DNA of 64,000 nucleotides from an uncultured Pseudanabaenaceae cyanobacterium. Lineage in GTDB: Bacteria; Cyanobacteriota; Cyanobacteriia; PCC-9006; JAAUQQ01. A model generated the notes under the pieces. The model worked only from the letters and a program-made list of their open reading frames with translations. It did no database searches and was not told the origin of the DNA. This document shows, piece after piece, positions 44,717 through 56,612 of this stretch; position 1 is the stretch's first letter, and the number at the start of each line of letters is the position of its first letter. Position numbers and translations under genes: made by a program. The DNA lies in contig CALLAT010000112.1 in the NCBI GenBank assembly GCA_938002085.1, forward strand, positions 23,688-87,687, in the 5' to 3' direction.

Positions 44717-46564
44717 ATGGTTGCCTCATCCCGCAATGTCCATCCCAAAATCCTGAAGCAGTTTCAACATCTGTTGGGCTCTATTCAGTTAGCTGTGCCA
44801 TTGTTGGTGGCCATCATTGGTGTTTTGGTTGGGGCGACATTTTATGAGTCTCAGGTGGGGTCGCCCACCGTTCAAAACCTGATTTATAAGAGCCATTGGT
44901 TTGGGGCCTTGATGTTTTTGCTGGCGGTGAATCTGTCGGTGTCGGCCCTCTCTCGCTATCCCTGGCGCGGTCCTCGCAAGATAGGTTTTGCCCTGACCCA
45001 CTTTGGCTTGGTGGTCTTGATTGCGGGCTCGGCTGCGGTGATTCACATCAGCACGGAGGGGATGCTGCTGGTGCGGACGGACCAGGGCGCGAACCGTTTG
45101 GTGCGGGTGGAGGGCGAGTTGCTGGATTTTGTGGGGCCAGAGGGGCAAGAGCAGCAATTCAATCTATTTATCAAGCCAGATAATACGGTTTCGCCTAGCC
45201 AGGCCGGCGACTTAGAGCTGCTGCGCTATGGCGAGAATGTGATTACGACGACGAATTTTGTTGAGCAAGGGGAGGTAGCGAATTCGGCGGTGAAGTTGCA
45301 GTTGCAGAGCGATCGCATGAACCAAACCCTGGAGCGCTGGCTGGCAGTTGCGCCAGCATCCTATAGCGAAGTCTCGGTTGGTCCAGCAACCCTGCAAGTC
45401 CAGCAGGCCCAGTCCGAAGCTGAACTAAAAGCCATGCTGGCTGCACCACCTAAGGCGGGCGACATTCCCAAGTTCGGCACCCTGTTGCTGGATTCGGGTA
45501 AAACTATTGATGTGGAGCAAAGCCAGGGACAGCTGATTGAGCTACCCGGTGGCGCTGACATGGTCATCACCCAAGTTTGGCCAGACTTCCGTCTCAACAG
45601 TGACAACCGGCCTGAAACGGCTTCTGAACAATTCAATAACCCCGTGCTTCAGGTCGCTTTGCGGGATGGAGAAAAAGAAGCCCGCTGGTTTGTCTTTGCC
45701 GAAGGCGGTTTTGAGCCGGTCAAGACGACGGTGGCGGGTGAGCCTTTGGATGCAAAGGCGTTGGGATTGGCCAATCTCAGTTATGAGGTTCAGCCCCAAC
45801 CGTTAGAGGACTACTTCCGAGTTGTCATTGCACCGGATGGGAGCCGCTTCTACGCTGCCAACTCTTCTAAAGGCTTCAAGTCTGGCCCCTTTGAGGCGGG
45901 CGAAGCCGTCACTCCCGGCTGGGCAGACTTCCGCATTAGCCTGGCGGACAGCCTCGACCATGCCGTGATTAATCGCGAGGTGGTAGAGGTCCCAGAAGAT
46001 GAAGGCTTGCAGGGTGAACCTGCCCTGCTAGTCCAAACGCCCGATGGTTCTCAGCAGTGGCTGCCCTGGGGCGAGGCCACGACTCTTAGTGATGCTGACG
46101 GAGACTATTACGCATCCTTTAGCGCTCAGATGCTGGAGTTGCCCTTTGGGGTCAAGCTGGAAGACTTCATTGTCGAGCGCAACGAAGGCAGTGAATCGGT
46201 GGCGATGTGGACGAGCCAAATTCGCCTGGATGATGCTCAAGCAGGTCCTCAAGAGAGCCGTCGCGTTTGGATGAACCACCCCACTTGGTACCAGGGCTGG
46301 AAAATTGCCCAGGCTTCTTGGAATCCCGGAGATCTCAACCAGTCCACCCTGCAAGTGAAGCGAGAGCCCTGGTGGGTGACGGGGCTGACCTGGTTGGGCT
46401 CGTTGATGGTGGTTGTGGGTACAGCAGTCATCTTCTACGGTCGCAGTGCGATGAAGAATCTCAAGGCTGCGTTGCCGGAGGAGAAAGATGAAGCGGTTAG
46501 CGCCGAGGCTGCCGCTGTGCCGTCGGCTCAGGCGAAGGGGCTTGATGCTCCGTTGTCGGTTTAG
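44717..46564 (+). CDS. ResB/Ccs1-like cytochrome c biogenesis protein
   Basis: N-terminal TM pair GSIQLAVPLLVAIIGVLVGATFYESQ, IGFALTHFGLVVLIAGSAAVIHISTEG, large periplasmic region, C-terminal TM; followed by a ccsA-like gene. Confidence 0.8.
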   Translation: MVASSRNVHPKILKQFQHLLGSIQLAVPLLVAIIGVLVGATFYESQVGSPTVQNLIYKSHWFGALMFLLAVNLSVSALSRYPWRGPRKIGFALTHFGLVVLIAGSAAVIHISTEGMLLVRTDQGANRLVRVEGELLDFVGPEGQEQQFNLFIKPDNTVSPSQAGDLELLRYGENVITTTNFVEQGEVANSAVKLQLQSDRMNQTLERWLAVAPASYSEVSVGPATLQVQQAQSEAELKAMLAAPPKAGDIPKFGTLLLDSGKTIDVEQSQGQLIELPGGADMVITQVWPDFRLNSDNRPETASEQFNNPVLQVALRDGEKEARWFVFAEGGFEPVKTTVAGEPLDAKALGLANLSYEVQPQPLEDYFRVVIAPDGSRFYAANSSKGFKSGPFEAGEAVTPGWADFRISLADSLDHAVINREVVEVPEDEGLQGEPALLVQTPDGSQQWLPWGEATTLSDADGDYYASFSAQMLELPFGVKLEDFIVERNEGSESVAMWTSQIRLDDAQAGPQESRRVWMNHPTWYQGWKIAQASWNPGDLNQSTLQVKREPWWVTGLTWLGSLMVVVGTAVIFYGRSAMKNLKAALPEEKDEAVSAEAAAVPSAQAKGLDAPLSV

Positions 46565-46629
46565 GGCAGATCGCTGATTGGTTTGGCTACAGGTTTTGTT
46601 TTCAGTCCCTTATGGTTCGCGCGATCGCT

Positions 46630-48378
46630 ATGAAATTCCTAAAATTCCTAATCGGCTTTACCCTCGGCCTGATGCTGCTGGTCTTGCCCCTTAGCCAATT
46701 CCAGGCTGGCCCCCTGGCTCCGCTGCAATCCCTAGCGGTGCAGATCGACGGGCGCAAAAAGCCTCTGGATACTGTGGCGCTGGAGACGGTGCAAAAGCTC
46801 CATGGTTCGGCCAGCTACAAGCAAGCCGATGGCTCCAAGCTGGACTATCTGCAAACCTACTTTGCCCTCGCTTTCAACGATCGCGATTGGAACAACGAGC
46901 CCTTCCTCCTCTTTAGCTATCGCCCGCTCAAAGAAGAAGTGGGCTTCAACCCGGAGCAAAAGTACTTCAGCTTTCAGGAGCTGCTCTCCTCTAAGTCCCT
47001 GAGCCAGGTGATCAACCGAGCCCATGCTCGCGAGATAGCGGGGGAAGACCTATTTCGCCTGGAGCGGGAGGCCCTGTCAATTGAGGACCGTGCGACACTG
47101 CTCTATCGCACCGTGGGAGACAATAGCCTGCCTCTCGTGCCCCATCCCAGCGATGCCAAGGGAACTTGGGTGACGATTGAGAATGCTGCCGAGCTGTATC
47201 CCCCTGAAACCGCAGCGGACCTGATGGCCTTGGAGCAGCAGGTTCAGCAGGGCTATCGCTTTGGAGCAGCGCACTTGGACTATGTAGGGCAGTTGGGCGG
47301 CAAGTTAAAACAGTCTTTGGCTGAGCTGAGCCCGATGGTCTATCCCAGCGATGCAACCCTCCAGCGCGAAGTCTTCTATAACCACTTCCACCCCTTCGGC
47401 AAAGCCTGGATGATCTTTGGTCTGGGCTTCCTGGTGATGCTGGCATCCCTCTGGTTCAAGCCCCTGGAGCTGTACGGCAGTGCAATCGGTCTGGCCGCAG
47501 CAGGTTTAACGACGGAGGCCTATGGTTTCATTTTGCGGATGCAAATCGCGGACCGTCCTCCTGTCACCAACATGTATGAGTCAGTCATTTGGGTGAGCTT
47601 TGGGGTTATTGCTCTAGCCCTGATTTTTGAACTGACTTCTGATAAAGCCCGCTACTATCTGCTCTCCGCTTCGCCAGTTGCCGTCGTTTGTTTGCTCTTG
47701 GCCGATCGCCTGCCGGTGGTGCTGGACCCCAGCATTGCGCCCCTGGTGCCGGTGCTGCGCGATAACTTTTGGCTCAGCATCCATGTCCCGACGATTACCC
47801 TGGGCTATGCCGCCTTTGCCCTGGCCATGGGCTTGGGTCATGTTTCCCTTGGCCATTACCTGTTTGCTAACCCTGCCAACCCCACGGTCAAAAAGCGTCT
47901 GCAAACCCTGTCCCAGTTCAACTACCGCACGCTCCAAGTGGGGGTGTTGCTGCTGACCACTGGCGTCATCCTGGGCGGCATTTGGGCGCACTTCTCCTGG
48001 GGCCGTTTTTGGGGCTGGGACCCGAAGGAGACCTGGGCTTTGATTGCCTTGCTGTGCTACTTGGTTCCGCTCCACGGTCGCCTAGTGGGTTGGATCGGCA
48101 ACTTTGGCATTAACGTTGCTGCTGTGGTGTCATTCAATGCAGTTTTGATGGCCTGGTATGGGGTTAACTTCGTCCTAGGGACTGGCTTGCACAGTTATGG
48201 CTTTGGTACGGGTGACTCCCAACTCATTGTGGCAGCGGTGGTTGTGGCTGACTTGGCGATCGTGGCCCTGACGGCCCTGCGTCATCGCAGCCGTAAGCCC
48301 TCGGGGCAACCCTTGATTATTGAAGAGGTCACGCTCTCTGAAGAAGCCATCCAAGCCATGGCGAGCGAAGCCCAGTAA
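46630..48378 (+). CDS. CcsA-like cytochrome c synthase subunit
   Basis: WWD motif WGRFWGWDPKETWALIALLCYLVPLHGR, multiple TM segments, extended N-terminal periplasmic domain. Confidence 0.9.
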   Translation: MKFLKFLIGFTLGLMLLVLPLSQFQAGPLAPLQSLAVQIDGRKKPLDTVALETVQKLHGSASYKQADGSKLDYLQTYFALAFNDRDWNNEPFLLFSYRPLKEEVGFNPEQKYFSFQELLSSKSLSQVINRAHAREIAGEDLFRLEREALSIEDRATLLYRTVGDNSLPLVPHPSDAKGTWVTIENAAELYPPETAADLMALEQQVQQGYRFGAAHLDYVGQLGGKLKQSLAELSPMVYPSDATLQREVFYNHFHPFGKAWMIFGLGFLVMLASLWFKPLELYGSAIGLAAAGLTTEAYGFILRMQIADRPPVTNMYESVIWVSFGVIALALIFELTSDKARYYLLSASPVAVVCLLLADRLPVVLDPSIAPLVPVLRDNFWLSIHVPTITLGYAAFALAMGLGHVSLGHYLFANPANPTVKKRLQTLSQFNYRTLQVGVLLLTTGVILGGIWAHFSWGRFWGWDPKETWALIALLCYLVPLHGRLVGWIGNFGINVAAVVSFNAVLMAWYGVNFVLGTGLHSYGFGTGDSQLIVAAVVVADLAIVALTALRHRSRKPSGQPLIIEEVTLSEEAIQAMASEAQ

Positions 48379-48447: not shown

Positions 48448-48954
48448 ATGGAACGTCGCAAATTTCTCTCTTGGTTGGGCGTTGGTGCATTAGCAACTTC
48501 TTTGCCCACGGTTTTGGCGGCTTGCTCTAGCACTTATGAAACCAGCACTGATTCTGTTGATACCAGCACCGAAAATATCATCACTAGCGACGACCCGATT
48601 CAGTCGGCAAAATCAGAGATTAGTGAGACCCCAGATGCGGATGGCTTCTACTCGGTGGGCACCTTAGCTGCGGTGGCCGCAGGGGGAGCGATTACTTCCA
48701 AGAAGTTTTCTAGTGCCTCTGGGGCATTGATTGTGGTTCAAGACCCAGCCAACCCTGAGGGAGTGGTGGCCCTCGATGCTCGCTGTACTCACCAGGGCTG
48801 TGCTGTTGATTGGGAAGATGGCAGCTTTGTTTGTCCTTGTCATGCCTCTGCCTTTGCCATTGATGGTGCCGTAGAGAAAGGCCCGGCCACAGAGCCTTTG
48901 GGAGTCTTTGAGACCAAGATTGAAGGCGACCAAATTTTTGTCAAACCGGCCTAG
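48448..48954 (+). CDS. Rieske 2Fe-2S protein with Tat-like signal and lipobox
   Basis: [24 protein letters not shown] cluster-binding motif; N-terminus [26 protein letters not shown]. Confidence 0.9.
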
Positions 48955-49093
48955 CCTTGAGCCCTAACGATGATGCAGAGACAGACTGTGAGGCTTTCGC
49001 AGAGATTGATCCCGTCTATTTTCTGTTGCTCACGATGGTCTTTGCATCTCACCCCTTACGCTATTTTTGTCTCCTGTTGTATTGGCTAAGGCT

Positions 49094-50020
49094 ATGTCCC
49101 AGCTTTCCTCTGAACAAGTCCTGGCGGCGATCGCGATGTCCCAGTCTCTGCGTAAGCATGAGTTGAGTCGCATCGAGCTGTCCCAGCAGAGCATTGCTGG
49201 GGGCGACTTTACGGAGGCCTATATGCGATCTGCGAATTTAGCAGAGAGCCACTGTGAGGGCACGAACTTTACCGAAGCCACGTTGATTTGGGCGAATTTG
49301 ACCGGGGCGAATTTGACCGGGGCAAAGCTGGAGCGATCGCTGCTCACTTGCGCCCTGTTCAAGCAAGCGAATTTGCGCGGCGTCCATGCCAGCCATGCCA
49401 ACTTTACCGGGGCGGATCTGGAGCGCATGGATGGCTCGGAAGGCTGCTTTGATGGGGCTGATTTCCAAGATTCCAAGGGTTGCCACAGCTGCTTTAAAGG
49501 CAGTAGCCTCCAGCAGTCCAAAGGCGTGGGGGCGGACTTTAGCTGGGCCGAGATGGCCGAAGCAAAGCTCCAAGCCAGCCGTTGGAATAATAGTAATTGG
49601 GTGGCGGTACAACTAGAGGCCGCTAACTTGGAGAAGGCTCAATTTGTGGGCTGCGATTTGTCCGAGGCCAATCTCTCTCGGGCCAACTGTCTCAATGGCA
49701 AATTTGCAGGCGTTCGGCTTCACAGCGCTGATTTGAGTGGTGCTCAACTGGACTGGGCTGACCTGTCCACAGCTAATCTGCGCCAGGCAAAGCTGGTTAG
49801 AACGTCGTTGTTCAATGCCAGCTTGGAGCGGGCTAGTTTGATGGATGCGGACTTGTCGGGGGCGAATTTGCGGGATGCCAGTTTGGAAGAGGCGAACTTG
49901 GCGGGGACCTGCTGGGATGAGGCGATCGTGACGGGAGCTGTGTTTACGGATTCCCAAGGACTAACGCCAGAGCAGAAGCTATGGCTGCGGGAGAACGGCG
50001 CGTTGAATGTGCCGAAGTAA
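49094..50020 (+). CDS. Pentapeptide-repeat protein
   Basis: Repeated A(D/N)LxxA motifs (ANLTGANLTGAKLERSLL, ADLSGAQLDWADLSTANLRQAKL). Confidence 0.9.
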   Translation: MSQLSSEQVLAAIAMSQSLRKHELSRIELSQQSIAGGDFTEAYMRSANLAESHCEGTNFTEATLIWANLTGANLTGAKLERSLLTCALFKQANLRGVHASHANFTGADLERMDGSEGCFDGADFQDSKGCHSCFKGSSLQQSKGVGADFSWAEMAEAKLQASRWNNSNWVAVQLEAANLEKAQFVGCDLSEANLSRANCLNGKFAGVRLHSADLSGAQLDWADLSTANLRQAKLVRTSLFNASLERASLMDADLSGANLRDASLEEANLAGTCWDEAIVTGAVFTDSQGLTPEQKLWLRENGALNVPK

Positions 50021-50219: not shown

Positions 50220-51245
50220 TTAGGGGCTGAGCCAAAAGTAATCCGCAATGCCACCTTCGCCCCCCTGGGCCATCGTTTCCGAGGGATTGAGTAGAACCGT
50301 GGTGTGTTGCAAGTCTGAGCCCAAGCGACGCGCCACCCGGTCCGGAATGCCCCAGCCATGCATAATATGGCCCTGCCCCGCTAGCACAACAACGGTATGG
50401 TCTGGGTTGTTCTGAGCAAACTCTGCCACGGTCTCCGCCATGGTTTCATCCCACAGCACCTGGGCCGAAAAGAAGCGCTCAAAGGCCGCATCCATGGCTT
50501 CCGGGTCCATGTCCTTTGAAGCATGGCCATGGCCGTGGTGGCCCATAAACACGCTGGCGACCCAACTGCGATATTCCACGTTGTTGAGGCTGATCTCTTC
50601 CAAGGGCGGAATCTGAGCCAGGGCTTCGTCGTCTAGGCTCTCAAATCCTTCGCGAGCGACCTGGCGGGTCAGCTCCTGGGGCGTGTTGGCGGCGAGCAGG
50701 GGCAACCCCTGAGCCTTGCCGTAGCTGATGATGGGCTCATACAAGGCCCAGTCAAAGCCCCAGCGTTCGTCGTACTCGCTGTCGCGGCGCAGGCTGTCGG
50801 CATCAATTTTGCCTGCGCTGTAGTCGTCCAGGACGGATTGGAAAGGGCGCTGGAACATCTCAAAGGCGATCGCCACCTTCTTCCCATCCGCTTCTCCCTG
50901 CGCCACCAAAGCTTGAATAATCTCCAACTGAGCCTGGTGATCCAGCTCGCTATCGTGACGCTCCCCGAGATACACCACACGGGATTCGCTGAGCGCCTTG
51001 AGGATAGTGGCGCGATCGCTCGCTTCACCCATTACAGTCTTTGCTTCCGTATTTGATTCTGCCTCAGCAGATTGGGCCTCGGCCTCCACAGCCACCTGGT
51101 TTTGGGCGGGCAAACTGGATTCTGCAGGCAAAATCTTACAGCCCGTCGTCACCAAACAGAGCAGAACCAGCAAAGCCCAAGGGCCGGAGCGTTGACGCAG
51201 AGGGATAACAGGCAAGGGCTTTGTTCCTTCGAAGAGACGAGGCAT
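50220..51245 (-). CDS. ChaN-like lipoprotein (heme-binding uptake family)
   Basis: Lipobox VTTGC; YLGERHDSELDHQAQLEIIQALVAQ, EMFQRPFQ, GHHGHGHASKDMDPEAMDAAFERFFSAQVLWDETMAE, VLAGQGHIMHGWGIPDRVARR. Confidence 0.85.
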   Translation of the reverse strand: MPRLFEGTKPLPVIPLRQRSGPWALLVLLCLVTTGCKILPAESSLPAQNQVAVEAEAQSAEAESNTEAKTVMGEASDRATILKALSESRVVYLGERHDSELDHQAQLEIIQALVAQGEADGKKVAIAFEMFQRPFQSVLDDYSAGKIDADSLRRDSEYDERWGFDWALYEPIISYGKAQGLPLLAANTPQELTRQVAREGFESLDDEALAQIPPLEEISLNNVEYRSWVASVFMGHHGHGHASKDMDPEAMDAAFERFFSAQVLWDETMAETVAEFAQNNPDHTVVVLAGQGHIMHGWGIPDRVARRLGSDLQHTTVLLNPSETMAQGGEGGIADYFWLSP

Positions 51246-51263
51246 ATCGTGTCGTTGGCGTAG

Positions 51264-51284
51264 GGACATGGCACTGCCATGTCC
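51264..51284. repeat. Palindromic repeat GGACATGGCA-C-TGCCATGTCC
   Basis: 10-bp perfect arms around one base, directly abutting the MITE TSD. Confidence 0.8.
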
Positions 51285-51286
51285 TA

Positions 51287-51419
51287 AGAGGTTGTTTGAG
51301 AAAGGCATCCAGCTGTAGCAGGATGACCTACGACGCGGCTTAAGTTAACGAGCTTTCGGTGTTTTGTTAAGGCTCAAGGTAGTAAATTTGATGCTTAGCC
51401 AAATTCTCAAACAACCTCT
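51287..51419. mobile_element. MITE-like element, 133 bp, 16-bp TIRs, TA target duplication
   Basis: TA-AGAGGTTGTTTGAGAA...TTCTCAAACAACCTCT-TA; related to 31586-31716. Confidence 0.88.
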
Positions 51420-51688: not shown

Positions 51689-52216
51689 TTAGGAAAGGTT
51701 TGAGGTGGACAGCGATTGGGCCAGGTTGCCATCGTCTTCCAGCAAAGGCGCGATCGCCCGATCCAACAGCTTCCCCGGCACCCGCCCCACAAATTCCTCC
51801 TGCACCTCACCCTCAGCCGTCAGGGTCAGCAGGTGGGGAATGCCCGTGACGGAATATTGCCGAACCGCTGCCGCCGCCTGGGCATCGTCGATATTGACCA
51901 TGACAAAGTTGATGCGATCGCCATAATGACCGTGCAGCTCCGTCACTACAGGAGCCATAGATTGGCAGCTACTGCACCAGTCCGCATAAAACTCCAGCAC
52001 CGTAGGCTTTTCATCGGCCATTGCTTGGTCATAGGGCACGGATTGCTGAGCCATCGTCTTTAGCGCCATCAGGCCTTTGACCGGCGACAGGGAGGCGGCT
52101 ACGGCGGGGGGCGCTAGGCTCAGGGCAAGACAAAGGGCGATCGCAACGGTGATGAAGAGGCGCTTAGCTTGCCGATACCAGGGCGAATGGAATTGCGTTG
52201 AGTTTGAACAAGTCAT
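51689..52216 (-). CDS. Exported/membrane-anchored thioredoxin-like protein (HCF164/TxlA type)
   Basis: Hydrophobic N-terminus, VLEFYADWCSSCQSMAPVV active site, cis-Pro GIPHLL. Confidence 0.85.
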   Translation of the reverse strand: MTCSNSTQFHSPWYRQAKRLFITVAIALCLALSLAPPAVAASLSPVKGLMALKTMAQQSVPYDQAMADEKPTVLEFYADWCSSCQSMAPVVTELHGHYGDRINFVMVNIDDAQAAAAVRQYSVTGIPHLLTLTAEGEVQEEFVGRVPGKLLDRAIAPLLEDDGNLAQSLSTSNLS

Positions 52217-52273: not shown

Positions 52274-52888
52274 TTAGGCATAGAAATAGACCATAAAAAT
52301 ATGGAAGCCCAACATGACAAAAAACATAAAAGTGAAAAAGATATGGGTCGATAGCCAAATCGCCCGCATATCGCGAATTAAGGGTCCCTTCGAAAATACT
52401 CCAAACGGTAGTTTTTGAGGCTTCATCTCTGGCGTAACCGGCACCCAACCAAAATACTTTCTCGGGGATTCAAGCACGCCCGTTTCAGCAACCACTCCCA
52501 CCAGAGCAGAAATAGAAGTGCCCCAAAAGACCCACATCAGGGCCGCATTAAAATTAACGCCCGTTGTCCCCACAGTGTGAAGCATCACAATCCCAACCAA
52601 ACCCACCCCAGCAAAAACATGGAGACTGCGCCAAATTAAAATGGAGCCGGGTAGCTTAATCTTCCACTTCCGACCTCGCTTACGGAGCGTTAAAGCAATC
52701 TCTGACAGTACAAAAGCTAAACTGACAAAACCTGTCACTTGCTTGTACAAATTTCCCCTTAGAAACTCATGGATCTCAAAGGCTTGGGCCTGGAGTTGAG
52801 GCATGTATAGCCCACTAAAGACAAACGGCATCAACAACAATGCCGTCACGAAAGTTAAGAGAATAAGCGTTGAGAATCGAGGCTTCAT
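52274..52888 (-). CDS. Multi-TM protein, predicted diheme cytochrome b-like
   Basis: Two HX13H motifs: HVFAGVGLVGIVMLH and HIFFTFMFFVMLGFH within hydrophobic helices. Confidence 0.7.
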   Translation of the reverse strand: MKPRFSTLILLTFVTALLLMPFVFSGLYMPQLQAQAFEIHEFLRGNLYKQVTGFVSLAFVLSEIALTLRKRGRKWKIKLPGSILIWRSLHVFAGVGLVGIVMLHTVGTTGVNFNAALMWVFWGTSISALVGVVAETGVLESPRKYFGWVPVTPEMKPQKLPFGVFSKGPLIRDMRAIWLSTHIFFTFMFFVMLGFHIFMVYFYA

Positions 52889-53022: not shown

Positions 53023-53694
53023 TTATGCAGCTTCATCCAAAGGAATGTTGATGATGATTCCGCCCATAACATCACCCATTTCAAACACCTTGTCGGGATA
53101 ACGCTCTAGGTGAGTGGGGTGAGTGTTGTGACAAGTCACGCAAGCTTCTGCCACTGCTTTGTCTGGATAGAGCGCGGAGAAATAAGGCTTGCCAGCAACT
53201 TCCTGGTATTCCTTATAAGGTTCGCCGGTATCCACAATGGATTGAATAGCAGTCTTCTCAAACTCAGTTCTGGGCTCGTGGTTATCGTTGATGTACCAAC
53301 TAGACAAGAGCTGATAAGTAAAGGGACTGCCATCAGAAGCAATCTCCGAACCAAGGCGGAACATTTGAGCAGGCAGCGGAATGCCATCGGTTTGCTGCCA
53401 AGACTCGGTTGCCTCCACGTCGATCACGCCATCTGGCTTATCTTTACCTTCCAGCGTCTTGAGACGGTTAATAACATGCTTCGTGTAAGCGGTGCGATCC
53501 GCTTCCATCACAGCGTGAATATAGTCCGCGACGATGTCTGGGGCGATGCCTGCCGCCGCCACAGGAGTCGAGCCGCCGCCAGAGCCACCGGCACAGGAGA
53601 CTGCTAGAAAACAAACTGCGATGGCCATGGAGACCATCCCAATGGTTTTGGCCTTTAACCGACTAAACCAATTTGATGAACTGTTCGCACGCAT
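53023..53694 (-). CDS. Tll0287-like (DUF3365) mono-heme c-type lipoprotein
   Basis: Lipobox LAVSC, single CVTCH, SALYPDKAVAEACVTCHNTHP...GDVMGGIIINIPLD. Confidence 0.8.
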   Translation of the reverse strand: MRANSSSNWFSRLKAKTIGMVSMAIAVCFLAVSCAGGSGGGSTPVAAAGIAPDIVADYIHAVMEADRTAYTKHVINRLKTLEGKDKPDGVIDVEATESWQQTDGIPLPAQMFRLGSEIASDGSPFTYQLLSSWYINDNHEPRTEFEKTAIQSIVDTGEPYKEYQEVAGKPYFSALYPDKAVAEACVTCHNTHPTHLERYPDKVFEMGDVMGGIIINIPLDEAA

Positions 53695-53788: not shown

Positions 53789-54589
53789 TTATTTCCCTTC
53801 TCGCTTTTCTTGAAGAACTCTAACCATGTCAAAACTCTTTAGATGAATTTCTGGTGGTCTAGAAAAGTTTGAATTAACCAGCTCATTGTCAAAGATACTA
53901 TTGAAGGCGTATTCCATTCCGTGGCAATTCATACAAACTTCGCTAGCCATGCGATCTCTTGGCTTTAAATTGTAGGTATTGTTGTGGTTTACGAATGTAT
54001 TTTTGCCTGATTTATCTGCTTCTCTTTGTAAGTGGCAAGTGGAGCAAGTGACCGAAGCATTAGAAGGTCTTTCAATATTTCCTTCTGCCAAGAATGACTG
54101 GCTATGTTTTGAATTTTTGTAGTTCAAAGAATGCTCATCATTGTGACAAGTTAGACAAGAGTCCACAGAGGCTTGATAGGTATCAACAGAATGAACGTTG
54201 TGGCAAGCATTGCAATTCATTTGCTTGCTATGGGCCTCGGGCTTCATGGCAATTCTTGCCTTGGTGGGCGTGAGTGGAGTTTGGCCTTCTCGTAGGCGAA
54301 TGCCATGCTTGCCAAGTAGGAAGGTATCCGTCTCTCCCTCGTGGCAGCTCTGGCAGCTTTCGTAGTTTGGCTTCTCGACAAAGGCCTTTGTTTCACTGTC
54401 TTGGTGGCAACTGGAGCAGTTGACGTCGGCCAAGGCATGGGCGCTCGGTTTCCACTGGGCCGTGATCTCGTTGAGTTCCGCTTCGGTAATACTGTCTGCT
54501 TGGGCTGGCAAACTGGCCGTTAGACTTAGGCCGAGGGAAAGGGCCAGGGATAGGGTGATAGAGAAGGCGATCGCCAATAACTTCTTCAT
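53789..54589 (-). CDS. Periplasmic hexaheme c-type cytochrome
   Basis: Signal peptide plus six CXXCH: CSSCH, CQSCH, CNACH, CLTCH, CSTCH, CMNCH. Confidence 0.9.
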   Translation of the reverse strand: MKKLLAIAFSITLSLALSLGLSLTASLPAQADSITEAELNEITAQWKPSAHALADVNCSSCHQDSETKAFVEKPNYESCQSCHEGETDTFLLGKHGIRLREGQTPLTPTKARIAMKPEAHSKQMNCNACHNVHSVDTYQASVDSCLTCHNDEHSLNYKNSKHSQSFLAEGNIERPSNASVTCSTCHLQREADKSGKNTFVNHNNTYNLKPRDRMASEVCMNCHGMEYAFNSIFDNELVNSNFSRPPEIHLKSFDMVRVLQEKREGK

Positions 54590-55239
54590 GTCCCACCTCC
54601 CAAAAACTCACTTTTCAAATCGGGGCTAGGGGCCGTTTCTAATTGAGCCTCAACCACAATTTCTGGAACGGTCTGCACGGGCAGCATCGGCGGCTGGTCT
54701 AAGTTGTCGTACAGGAAACCCGTGGAAATGGAGCGATGGTCATGGTAGTTATGACAGCCTGCGGTCCAGCAACCATCCGCCGTAAAGCCCTCGTGGCTGG
54801 TCATTTCACCCGTGATGATGCCCTCGTGGCAAGCCATGCAAAGGTCTGGCTGGAGATGAACGCCCCGGCCATACATTTTCACATGCTCGCCATGGCAGGC
54901 TGTACAGGTCAGAGCATCCAGCTTTTCTAGCTTCTCGGCCCAGCGAATATCGCGAAACTTCTTGTCACCATGGATATCTTGTTCTAGCTCTGCTTCATGG
55001 CAACGGTTGCAGGTTTCATTGGAGACTTTTTTGAACCCCTCGTGGCAGGAAGCACAACTGGCTTCAAAGCCTAAATGACCTTCAGAGGTGACGCCCGGCA
55101 GAAAGATTGCTTTTTGCTCCGTCGCCATCGTCATGGTGGCAACTAGCCAAACTAGAAGAAAGACAACTGCTCCTCCAATGATGGTTTTGATATTAATGAA
55201 GGACTTGAGCCCTCGACCTTTTCCCGATCTAGAAGCCAT
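54586..55239 (-). CDS. Membrane-anchored multiheme c-type cytochrome (4 CXXCH + 1 CX4CH)
   Basis: N-terminal TM IIGGAVVFLLVWLVATMTM; CASCH, CNRCH, CTACH, CMACH and CWTAGCH; ATGA overlap with the next gene. Confidence 0.9.
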   Translation of the reverse strand: MASRSGKGRGLKSFINIKTIIGGAVVFLLVWLVATMTMATEQKAIFLPGVTSEGHLGFEASCASCHEGFKKVSNETCNRCHEAELEQDIHGDKKFRDIRWAEKLEKLDALTCTACHGEHVKMYGRGVHLQPDLCMACHEGIITGEMTSHEGFTADGCWTAGCHNYHDHRSISTGFLYDNLDQPPMLPVQTVPEIVVEAQLETAPSPDLKSEFLGGGT

Positions 55240-55514: not shown

Positions 55515-56612
55515 CTAGAGCAGAATGAACAAGAAAATCACTGCAACGAGTCCTACAACACCACCTGCTACAGGCAACACTGGAAAGTTAGAACTTTCCT
55601 CCTGACTCACCTCACTATGCATTGGCCCCCCACTGGGGGTAGCAGGCTCAGGAGCTGGAGGCGTCACATTGGGCAAGCTTGGCTCAGCCGGAGCAGCCGG
55701 AGCCGCAGACTCTAACTGAACGTCTTGTTGAGAGTAATCAGCCCCTTCCAGCATCAATGCCGTAATGGCTCCGTAGGCCTCCACCCAAGCGTTCTTGGTG
55801 GTTTCGGTCCAGTCCGCGCCTAGATACTGTTCAAAGGTTTTGAGCAAGCTATTACCCACCAACGGATAGTGCTCTGGCAAAGCGCCATATTTGACATGGC
55901 GAGCCCCCAACCCGCCCAAGGCCTTGCTTAAAACCTCTGGCTTGCGAAGGTTCTCCACGACCATGACGAGGCCGCCCTTAAGCATTTGCCCCTGGCTCTT
56001 CATATTGGTGTGTTCAAACAGAGGCTTCGCTGCTGGATAGTCCGTGAAGAGGTTGTCATAAAAGCTCATCACAAACTCATCAGCTTGGGGAGCAACCTTC
56101 CCAAAGCTTTCTTCTAAAAGGCTTACATTAAGCCCGGCTTCTTCTTCAGATTCTGAAGGCGTCTCTGCAGGTACCGGAGCGTTGTCTAGATCTACCTCGG
56201 AGCTGCTGTAGTCAGCCCCTTCCAGCATGAGAGCGGTGATGGCTCCGTAAGCCTCAACCCAGGCTGTCTTTGTTTCCTCCGTCCAATCCTCTTTTAGATA
56301 CTGTTCAAAGGTTTTGAGCAAGCTATTGCCCACCAATGGATAGTGCTCAGGTAAGGCCCCATATTTGACATGGCGAGCCCCCAATCCGCCTAACGCCTTG
56401 CTCAAAACATCGGGATTGTTGAGGTTCTCCATCACCATGACAAGCCCCCCTTTGAGCATTTGCCCCTGCTTTTTCATATCACTGTGCTCAAACAGTGGCT
56501 TAGCAGCGGGGTAATCGGTGAAGAGATTGTCGTAGAAGCTCATGACAAAATCATCAGCTTGGGGGGCGACTTTGCCAAAACTCTGCTCTAGCAAATCAAC
56601 TTGCAACGACAT
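55515..56612 (-). CDS. Tandem two-domain globin (flavohemoglobin-type globin fold) with C-terminal TM anchor
   Basis: Two near-identical domains ...FVMSFYDNLFTDYPAAKPLFE...GGLGARHVKYGALPEHYPLVGNSLLKTFEQYL..., then PVLPVAGGVVGLVAVIFLFILL. Confidence 0.88.
   Translation of the reverse strand: MSLQVDLLEQSFGKVAPQADDFVMSFYDNLFTDYPAAKPLFEHSDMKKQGQMLKGGLVMVMENLNNPDVLSKALGGLGARHVKYGALPEHYPLVGNSLLKTFEQYLKEDWTEETKTAWVEAYGAITALMLEGADYSSSEVDLDNAPVPAETPSESEEEAGLNVSLLEESFGKVAPQADEFVMSFYDNLFTDYPAAKPLFEHTNMKSQGQMLKGGLVMVVENLRKPEVLSKALGGLGARHVKYGALPEHYPLVGNSLLKTFEQYLGADWTETTKNAWVEAYGAITALMLEGADYSQQDVQLESAAPAAPAEPSLPNVTPPAPEPATPSGGPMHSEVSQEESSNFPVLPVAGGVVGLVAVIFLFILL

Follow-up and report, generated by a model that had tools for sequence, protein, structure and literature searches.

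A tail-anchored tandem globin at the head of a conserved cyanobacterial multihaem cytochrome cassette

The window analyzed is a stretch of 64,000 nucleotides from an uncultured Pseudanabaenaceae cyanobacterium (contig CALLAT010000112.1). On its minus strand, a gene for a tandem globin opens a cassette with a conserved order: a globin (one to three domains), a pentahaem c-type cytochrome, a hexahaem c-type cytochrome, a Tll0287-like haem lipoprotein, a candidate five-helix cytochrome b and a thioredoxin-like protein. The second multihaem gene (MHC2) overlaps the first (MHC1) by 4 nt. Beyond a ChaN-family gene, the genes for ResB, CcsA, a Rieske protein and a pentapeptide-repeat protein lie on the opposite strand. 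The features, in window coordinates, are as follows.

55515..56612, minus: tail-anchored tandem globin, 365 aa, first gene of the cassette (open reading frame, Pfam, orthologues)
56208..56606, minus: globin domain 1, residues 3–135 (Pfam, HGbI alignment, pocket invariance)
55734..56132, minus: globin domain 2, residues 161–293, with the same haem-pocket residues as domain 1 (Pfam, HGbI alignment)
55524..55580, minus: C-terminal hydrophobic helix, residues 345–363, the tail anchor (hydropathy; preceded by an acidic, Pro-rich linker)
54586..55239, minus: MHC1, N-terminal transmembrane helix and pentahaem c-type cytochrome, 217 aa (four CX2CH motifs and one CX4CH)
53789..54589, minus: MHC2, hexahaem c-type cytochrome, 266 aa (six CX2CH motifs and six invariant His outside them)
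53023..53694, minus: Tll0287-like mono-haem c protein, PF11845, haem-Cache (Pfam; lipobox-like Cys34)
52274..52888, minus: candidate five-helix membrane cytochrome b, 204 aa (H90-x13-H104 and H182-x13-H196; two b haems predicted)
51689..52216, minus: exported thioredoxin-like protein (CSSC motif; Pfam)
50220..51308, minus: ChaN-family haem-binding lipoprotein, PF04187 (adjoins several cassettes, not all)
49067..50020, plus: pentapeptide-repeat protein (adjoins most cassettes)
48448..48954, plus: Rieske [2Fe-2S] protein (CTHQGC...CPCH)
46612..48378, plus: second CcsA-type cytochrome c assembly protein, 588 aa (PF01578)
44750..46564, plus: ResB/Ccs1-type cytochrome c assembly protein (start codon uncertain)

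The globin reading frame runs from ATG to stop and is matched twice by PF00042 (Globin; 129 bits, E = 1.6e-37, against a curated cut-off of 22); the Pfam scan of the 365 residues returned no other domain. Both domains, 133 aa each, are of the 3/3 flavohaemoglobin type. The best PDB matches were HGbI of Methylacidiphilum infernorum (3s1i, E = 1.5e-22), the closest solved structure by sequence, and then the globin of HGbRL (3wfw). In domain 1 the haem pocket comprises Tyr27 (B10, within SFY), Phe41 (CD1), Gln49 (E7, the first Gln of QGQ), Leu53 (E11) and His81 (F8, within ARH). Alignment with HGbI, for which the numbering of B10 and E7 is given in PMC11203436, places Tyr27 on Tyr29, Gln49 on Gln50 and His81 on the F8 His, and the counterparts in domain 2 fall likewise. 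The two flavohaemoglobin-type domains with Tyr, Gln and His that had been proposed in a sequence-only reading of this DNA are thus borne out. Since the five pocket residues are invariant in all 72 full-length domains compared, every domain copy should bind haem and gas ligands.

The same reading had described an acidic, Pro-rich linker followed by a transmembrane helix, and this description holds. The linker carries a net charge of −7, and residues 345–363 of 365 have a mean Kyte-Doolittle hydropathy of 2.74. The N-terminus is not hydrophobic (0.16), and no signal peptide was recognized there. A single C-terminal hydrophobic helix without a signal peptide is the pattern of a tail-anchored protein, and from it we infer an N-in topology in which the globins face the cytosol, consistent with the membrane-tethered cytosolic globins suggested earlier. 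Pfam found neither an FAD/NAD(P)H reductase domain, as had also been predicted, nor a signalling output domain: the globins are followed by the linker and the helix only. A search for the globin-globin-helix architecture recovered it in full from independent assemblies, and because it recurs in this way we consider it real rather than a product of chance. A flavohaemoglobin that had lost its reductase by truncation was rejected as an explanation, because the relatives, too, finish with such a helix or stop. A promoter scan gave nothing above chance, and the terminator scan listed no terminator-like site between globin and MHC1.

The two halves of the globin are close at the protein level (88.7% identity) and much less so in DNA (79.2%), so their description as near-identical stands for the protein and fails for the gene. 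The comparison of synonymous sites that the sequence-only reading had proposed gave pS 0.68 and dS of about 1.8, with dN/dS about 0.05. Synonymous sites are near saturation, which speaks against a recent origin, and the domains are under strong purifying selection. The three-domain relatives used for comparison were G001 and G002, from the window's own genus, and the near relative L023; the window protein has one domain fewer. In the domain tree, window domain 1 groups with domain 1 of these proteins (support 99/93) and window domain 2 mainly with their domain 3 (98/98), in a set that also holds the second domain of G002. It follows that the domain split is older than the divergence of these relatives. 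The notion that the halves reflect a recent duplication, gene conversion or a duplicate made in assembly, without functional meaning, draws on their high protein identity and on the truly recent pair found in Spirulina SIO3F2 (97% nucleotide identity), but it is refuted for the window gene by the synonymous divergence and by the orthology of its halves to different domains of relatives; we give it practically no credence. The same two observations led us to reject an assembly artefact as the source. In G004, Hyella, Spirulina and G495, each domain is closest to another domain of its own protein, which indicates that duplication or homogenisation has occurred several times. The Spirulina SIO3F2 domains (L027, 8001–8990; 100% identical in amino acids) are the only clearly recent case of duplication or conversion that we saw.

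By sequence, known families account for every part of the cassette but the membrane cytochrome, for which Pfam gave weak resemblance and no confident match. No MHC1 orthologue departs from the haem-motif pattern, and neither does any MHC2 of full length. Outside the motifs, MHC1 has at least five invariant His and MHC2 has six, enough for bis-His ligation of all haems, so both proteins are probably wires, not enzymes. A catalytic role for MHC2 of the NrfA/HAO type was considered and set aside, since six invariant His to spare are better suited to bis-His wires; its PDB resemblance to HAO-like proteins is weak (E = 4e-6), and its AF2 model is poor (pLDDT 39). The candidate cytochrome b carries H-x13-H twice, on two helices, in 14 of 14 orthologues. 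This spacing is that of the stacked b haems of bc-type and NOX-type cytochromes. A fold search with its weak model (pLDDT 59) gave no significant match. In the Tll0287-like protein (PF11845, 76.3 bits) the CXXCH motif is invariant and the only other invariant Cys is the lipobox-like C34, as compared with the axial Cys ligand of Tll0287; a PDB profile search with this protein found no relative.

The association of globin and cytochromes was examined in 393 Cyanobacteriia genomes from 161 genera, searched with an MHC1 profile. Pentahaem MHC1 was present in 38 genomes from 19 genera. Two of the 38 are cut by contig ends and were left out of the upstream count; a globin reading frame lies immediately upstream of MHC1 in all 36 with readable upstream DNA. 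The gap is mostly 3–71 nt, widening to 149–275 nt in a small number that includes the window's genus. The upstream globin has two domains and a helix in 21 of the 36 genomes and three domains and a helix in 5; it has one domain with a helix in 4 and one without in 4. One genome has two domains and a weak helix, and in one more a contig end truncates the globin. The label of a globin dimer therefore fits the window protein and not the family, whose members carry one, two or three domains. Five further cases (G252, G394, Hyella, Spirulina and L023) agree in having a globin beside the cassette, and tblastn recovered this order of genes from Hyella patelloides, Spirulina SIO3F2, G017 and four further near assemblies. 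In the long loci of five further genomes we found the Tll0287-like, cytochrome b and CcsA genes, and the thioredoxin, ResB, Rieske and pentapeptide genes in most of the five, within the stretch fetched. A separate sample across the phylum gave the globin family in 31 of 392 genomes and an MHC2 match in 4, with a globin beside MHC2 in 4/4; the frequencies of the two samples differ, probably because different genomes were drawn and because a single sequence served as query in one and a profile in the other. When plasmids were searched with the globin, only distant globins were returned, the best in Nostoc plasmids. The suggested link with the nearby membrane cytochromes is well supported by these data, the same multihaem operon lying directly downstream in every informative genome, and the globin very probably belongs functionally to the haem cassette.

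The genome that contributes the window also encodes a standard CcsA, which scores 363 bits where the cassette copy scores 159; the cassette thus seems to be equipped with a c-haem assembly system of its own. Within the cassette of G017, a second, divergent single globin lies between the cytochrome b and thioredoxin genes (L030, 5831–6361), with changes in the E-helix region and in the F8 motif (GAYHVTKG).

In the mechanism that we propose, the globin gene would supply the cytosolic, membrane-tethered arm of a conserved cyanobacterial haem-redox module. The five-helix protein would carry two b haems across the membrane and join the c haems and the Rieske centre of the p side to the n side. This relay could re-reduce ferric globin haem at the membrane, taking the place of the flavin reductase of flavohaemoglobin, and the globin array might then turn over as a membrane-coupled NO dioxygenase or an O2-consuming scavenger, the domain repeats raising the number of sites near the relay. 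The chances of direct redox coupling between the globin and the membrane relay, with NO/O2 chemistry, are in our judgement about even. The full scheme, a flavin-free globin enzyme of several proteins in which the relay drives the tethered cytosolic array and couples the photosynthetic or respiratory chain directly to NO/O2 removal, is offered tentatively and may well not hold.

Redox coupling is favoured by the unbroken position of the globin upstream of MHC1, the invariant pocket of the HGbI type, the repeated H-x13-H of the cytochrome b with the constant haem motifs of its partners, and the spare His of MHC2, which would suit a bis-His electron wire. It is consistent, too, with the second, divergent CcsA, the additional globin gene of the G017 cassette and the redox roles reported for stand-alone Tll0287-type proteins (PMC12889525). 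A reductase-bearing globin was not found in the window's assembly, which is weak evidence at an assembly completeness of about 63%. According to one review, membrane reductases may be helped in reducing globins when these are associated with membranes; it also cautions that NO dioxygenase function cannot be declared a priori (PMC3820574). Against coupling, electron flow from the p side to the cytosol opposes the membrane potential, and the models of cytochrome b and MHC2 are poor, with no significant match in the fold search. Four or five cassettes encode a single, anchor-less globin; tethering can therefore not be essential. Relatives fused to a histidine kinase, MscS or pentapeptide repeats point to a sensory or regulatory role for some members of the family at least. 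These same fusions (L014 to the kinase; L028 and L029 to MscS; L041, L050 and L053 to transmembrane helices and pentapeptide repeats) would favour a globin array that senses O2 or NO and controls the haem module allosterically or transcriptionally while taking no electrons from it, and a Tyr B10/Gln E7 pocket also fits tight ligand sensing. Yet the cassette globin ends in a helix with no output domain, and up to three near-identical domains with intact pockets would point to capacity, not signal; we regard such a sensor as unlikely.

Binding capacity does rise with domain repeats, as would be expected if the array were a membrane-bound store or scavenger that sets local O2 or NO levels without catalysis. 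Such a mode of action has been proposed for Nostoc GlbN and the Vitreoscilla globin (VHb), both membrane-associated; titles cited in PMC3820574 describe GlbN as a peripheral membrane protein and report membrane binding by VHb. A buffer of this kind seems to us distinctly improbable, because no recognizable O2-using terminal oxidase is encoded in the cassette and the coupling to a second cytochrome c assembly system would go unexplained. In a further reading, the array would act as a haem courier, keeping b-haem on the cytosolic side ready for the second CcsB/CcsA exporter, which would feed the 12 c-haem sites of the cassette; CcsB/CcsA are nearby, as is ChaN in several loci. However, a pure courier would have no need of the distal Tyr and Gln that all 72 domains retain, and we think this very improbable indeed. 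Redox coupling to the relay is the reading carried forward here.

HGbI resembles each window domain in being a 3/3 flavohaemoglobin-type globin with Tyr B10, Gln E7 and the F8 His and without a reductase; it differs in having a single domain and no membrane anchor. To our knowledge, it is not part of a multihaem cassette. Flavohaemoglobin (Hmp) has a globin domain of the same lineage, and its model NF009805 covers only the globin part of the window protein (140.5 of 432 bits, below the cut-off); in contrast to Hmp, the window protein has no FAD/NAD reductase, has a tail anchor and belongs to a family with one to three globins. GlbN is a 2/2 truncated globin. It is cyanobacterial and membrane-associated like the window protein (the latter by a reference cited in PMC3820574), but is peripheral, not anchored, and of a different family. 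A census from 2006 listed flavohaemoglobins and globin-coupled sensors as the only chimeric globins (PMC1457004). The cyanobacterial globin-kinase, globin-MscS and globin-pentapeptide fusions share the globin family of the cassette protein, which, unlike these fusions and the globin-coupled sensors, lacks an output domain. With its two H-x13-H helices and nearby Rieske protein, the cassette recalls bc- and NOX-type cytochrome b systems; it differs in the five helices of its candidate cytochrome b and in having multihaem c proteins in place of cytochrome c1/f, and no significant sequence or fold match linked the two (model pLDDT 59). Its haem-Cache member is of the stand-alone Tll0287-like type, for which a study that mentions neither globins nor an operon reports a likely redox role in preference to NO sensing (PMC12889525).

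It has long been asked how bacterial globins of a single domain regain their reduced state. In the cassette, a globin that has no reductase domain accompanies, in every informative genome of our sample, a defined membrane electron-transfer operon with haem-assembly proteins nearby, so that donor and acceptor can be tested together. From the gene order, the globin may draw on a membrane electron chain where flavohaemoglobin uses a flavin reductase, and we know of no flavin-free, relay-driven globin enzyme of this kind. The cassette also brings multihaem c-type cytochromes, a class rarely considered for cyanobacteria, to about one in ten of the Cyanobacteriia genomes sampled, together with a globin protein whose domain number ranges from one to three. 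Searches of the open literature for tandem or membrane globins in cyanobacteria, globin-pentapeptide proteins and globin-multihaem clusters found nothing relevant; most subscription literature lay outside them, and novelty is accordingly provisional.

The wider globin family offers several further observations. Eight loci (L041, L050, L051, L052, L053, L056, L058 and L060) from several cyanobacterial genomes encode two tandem globins fused to transmembrane helices and a pentapeptide-repeat domain in about 640–680 aa; a pentapeptide-repeat gene likewise adjoins the haem cassette. In Nodosilinea and Coleofasciculus (L028, 6600–8432; L029, 228–2078), an MscS-type channel carries a C-terminal globin of the window's family, possibly as a gas-gated channel. 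In L014 (664–1953) such a globin is fused to a soluble histidine kinase (HisKA and HATPase_c). Two single-domain globins of another subfamily, similar to each other, occur on separate short contigs of the window's genome (L002, 1435–1938; L003, 715–1233), perhaps as paralogues or through a mixed bin. Finally, the globin of L008 (1393–2430) is followed by a long EPELVAEPEPV repeat tail.
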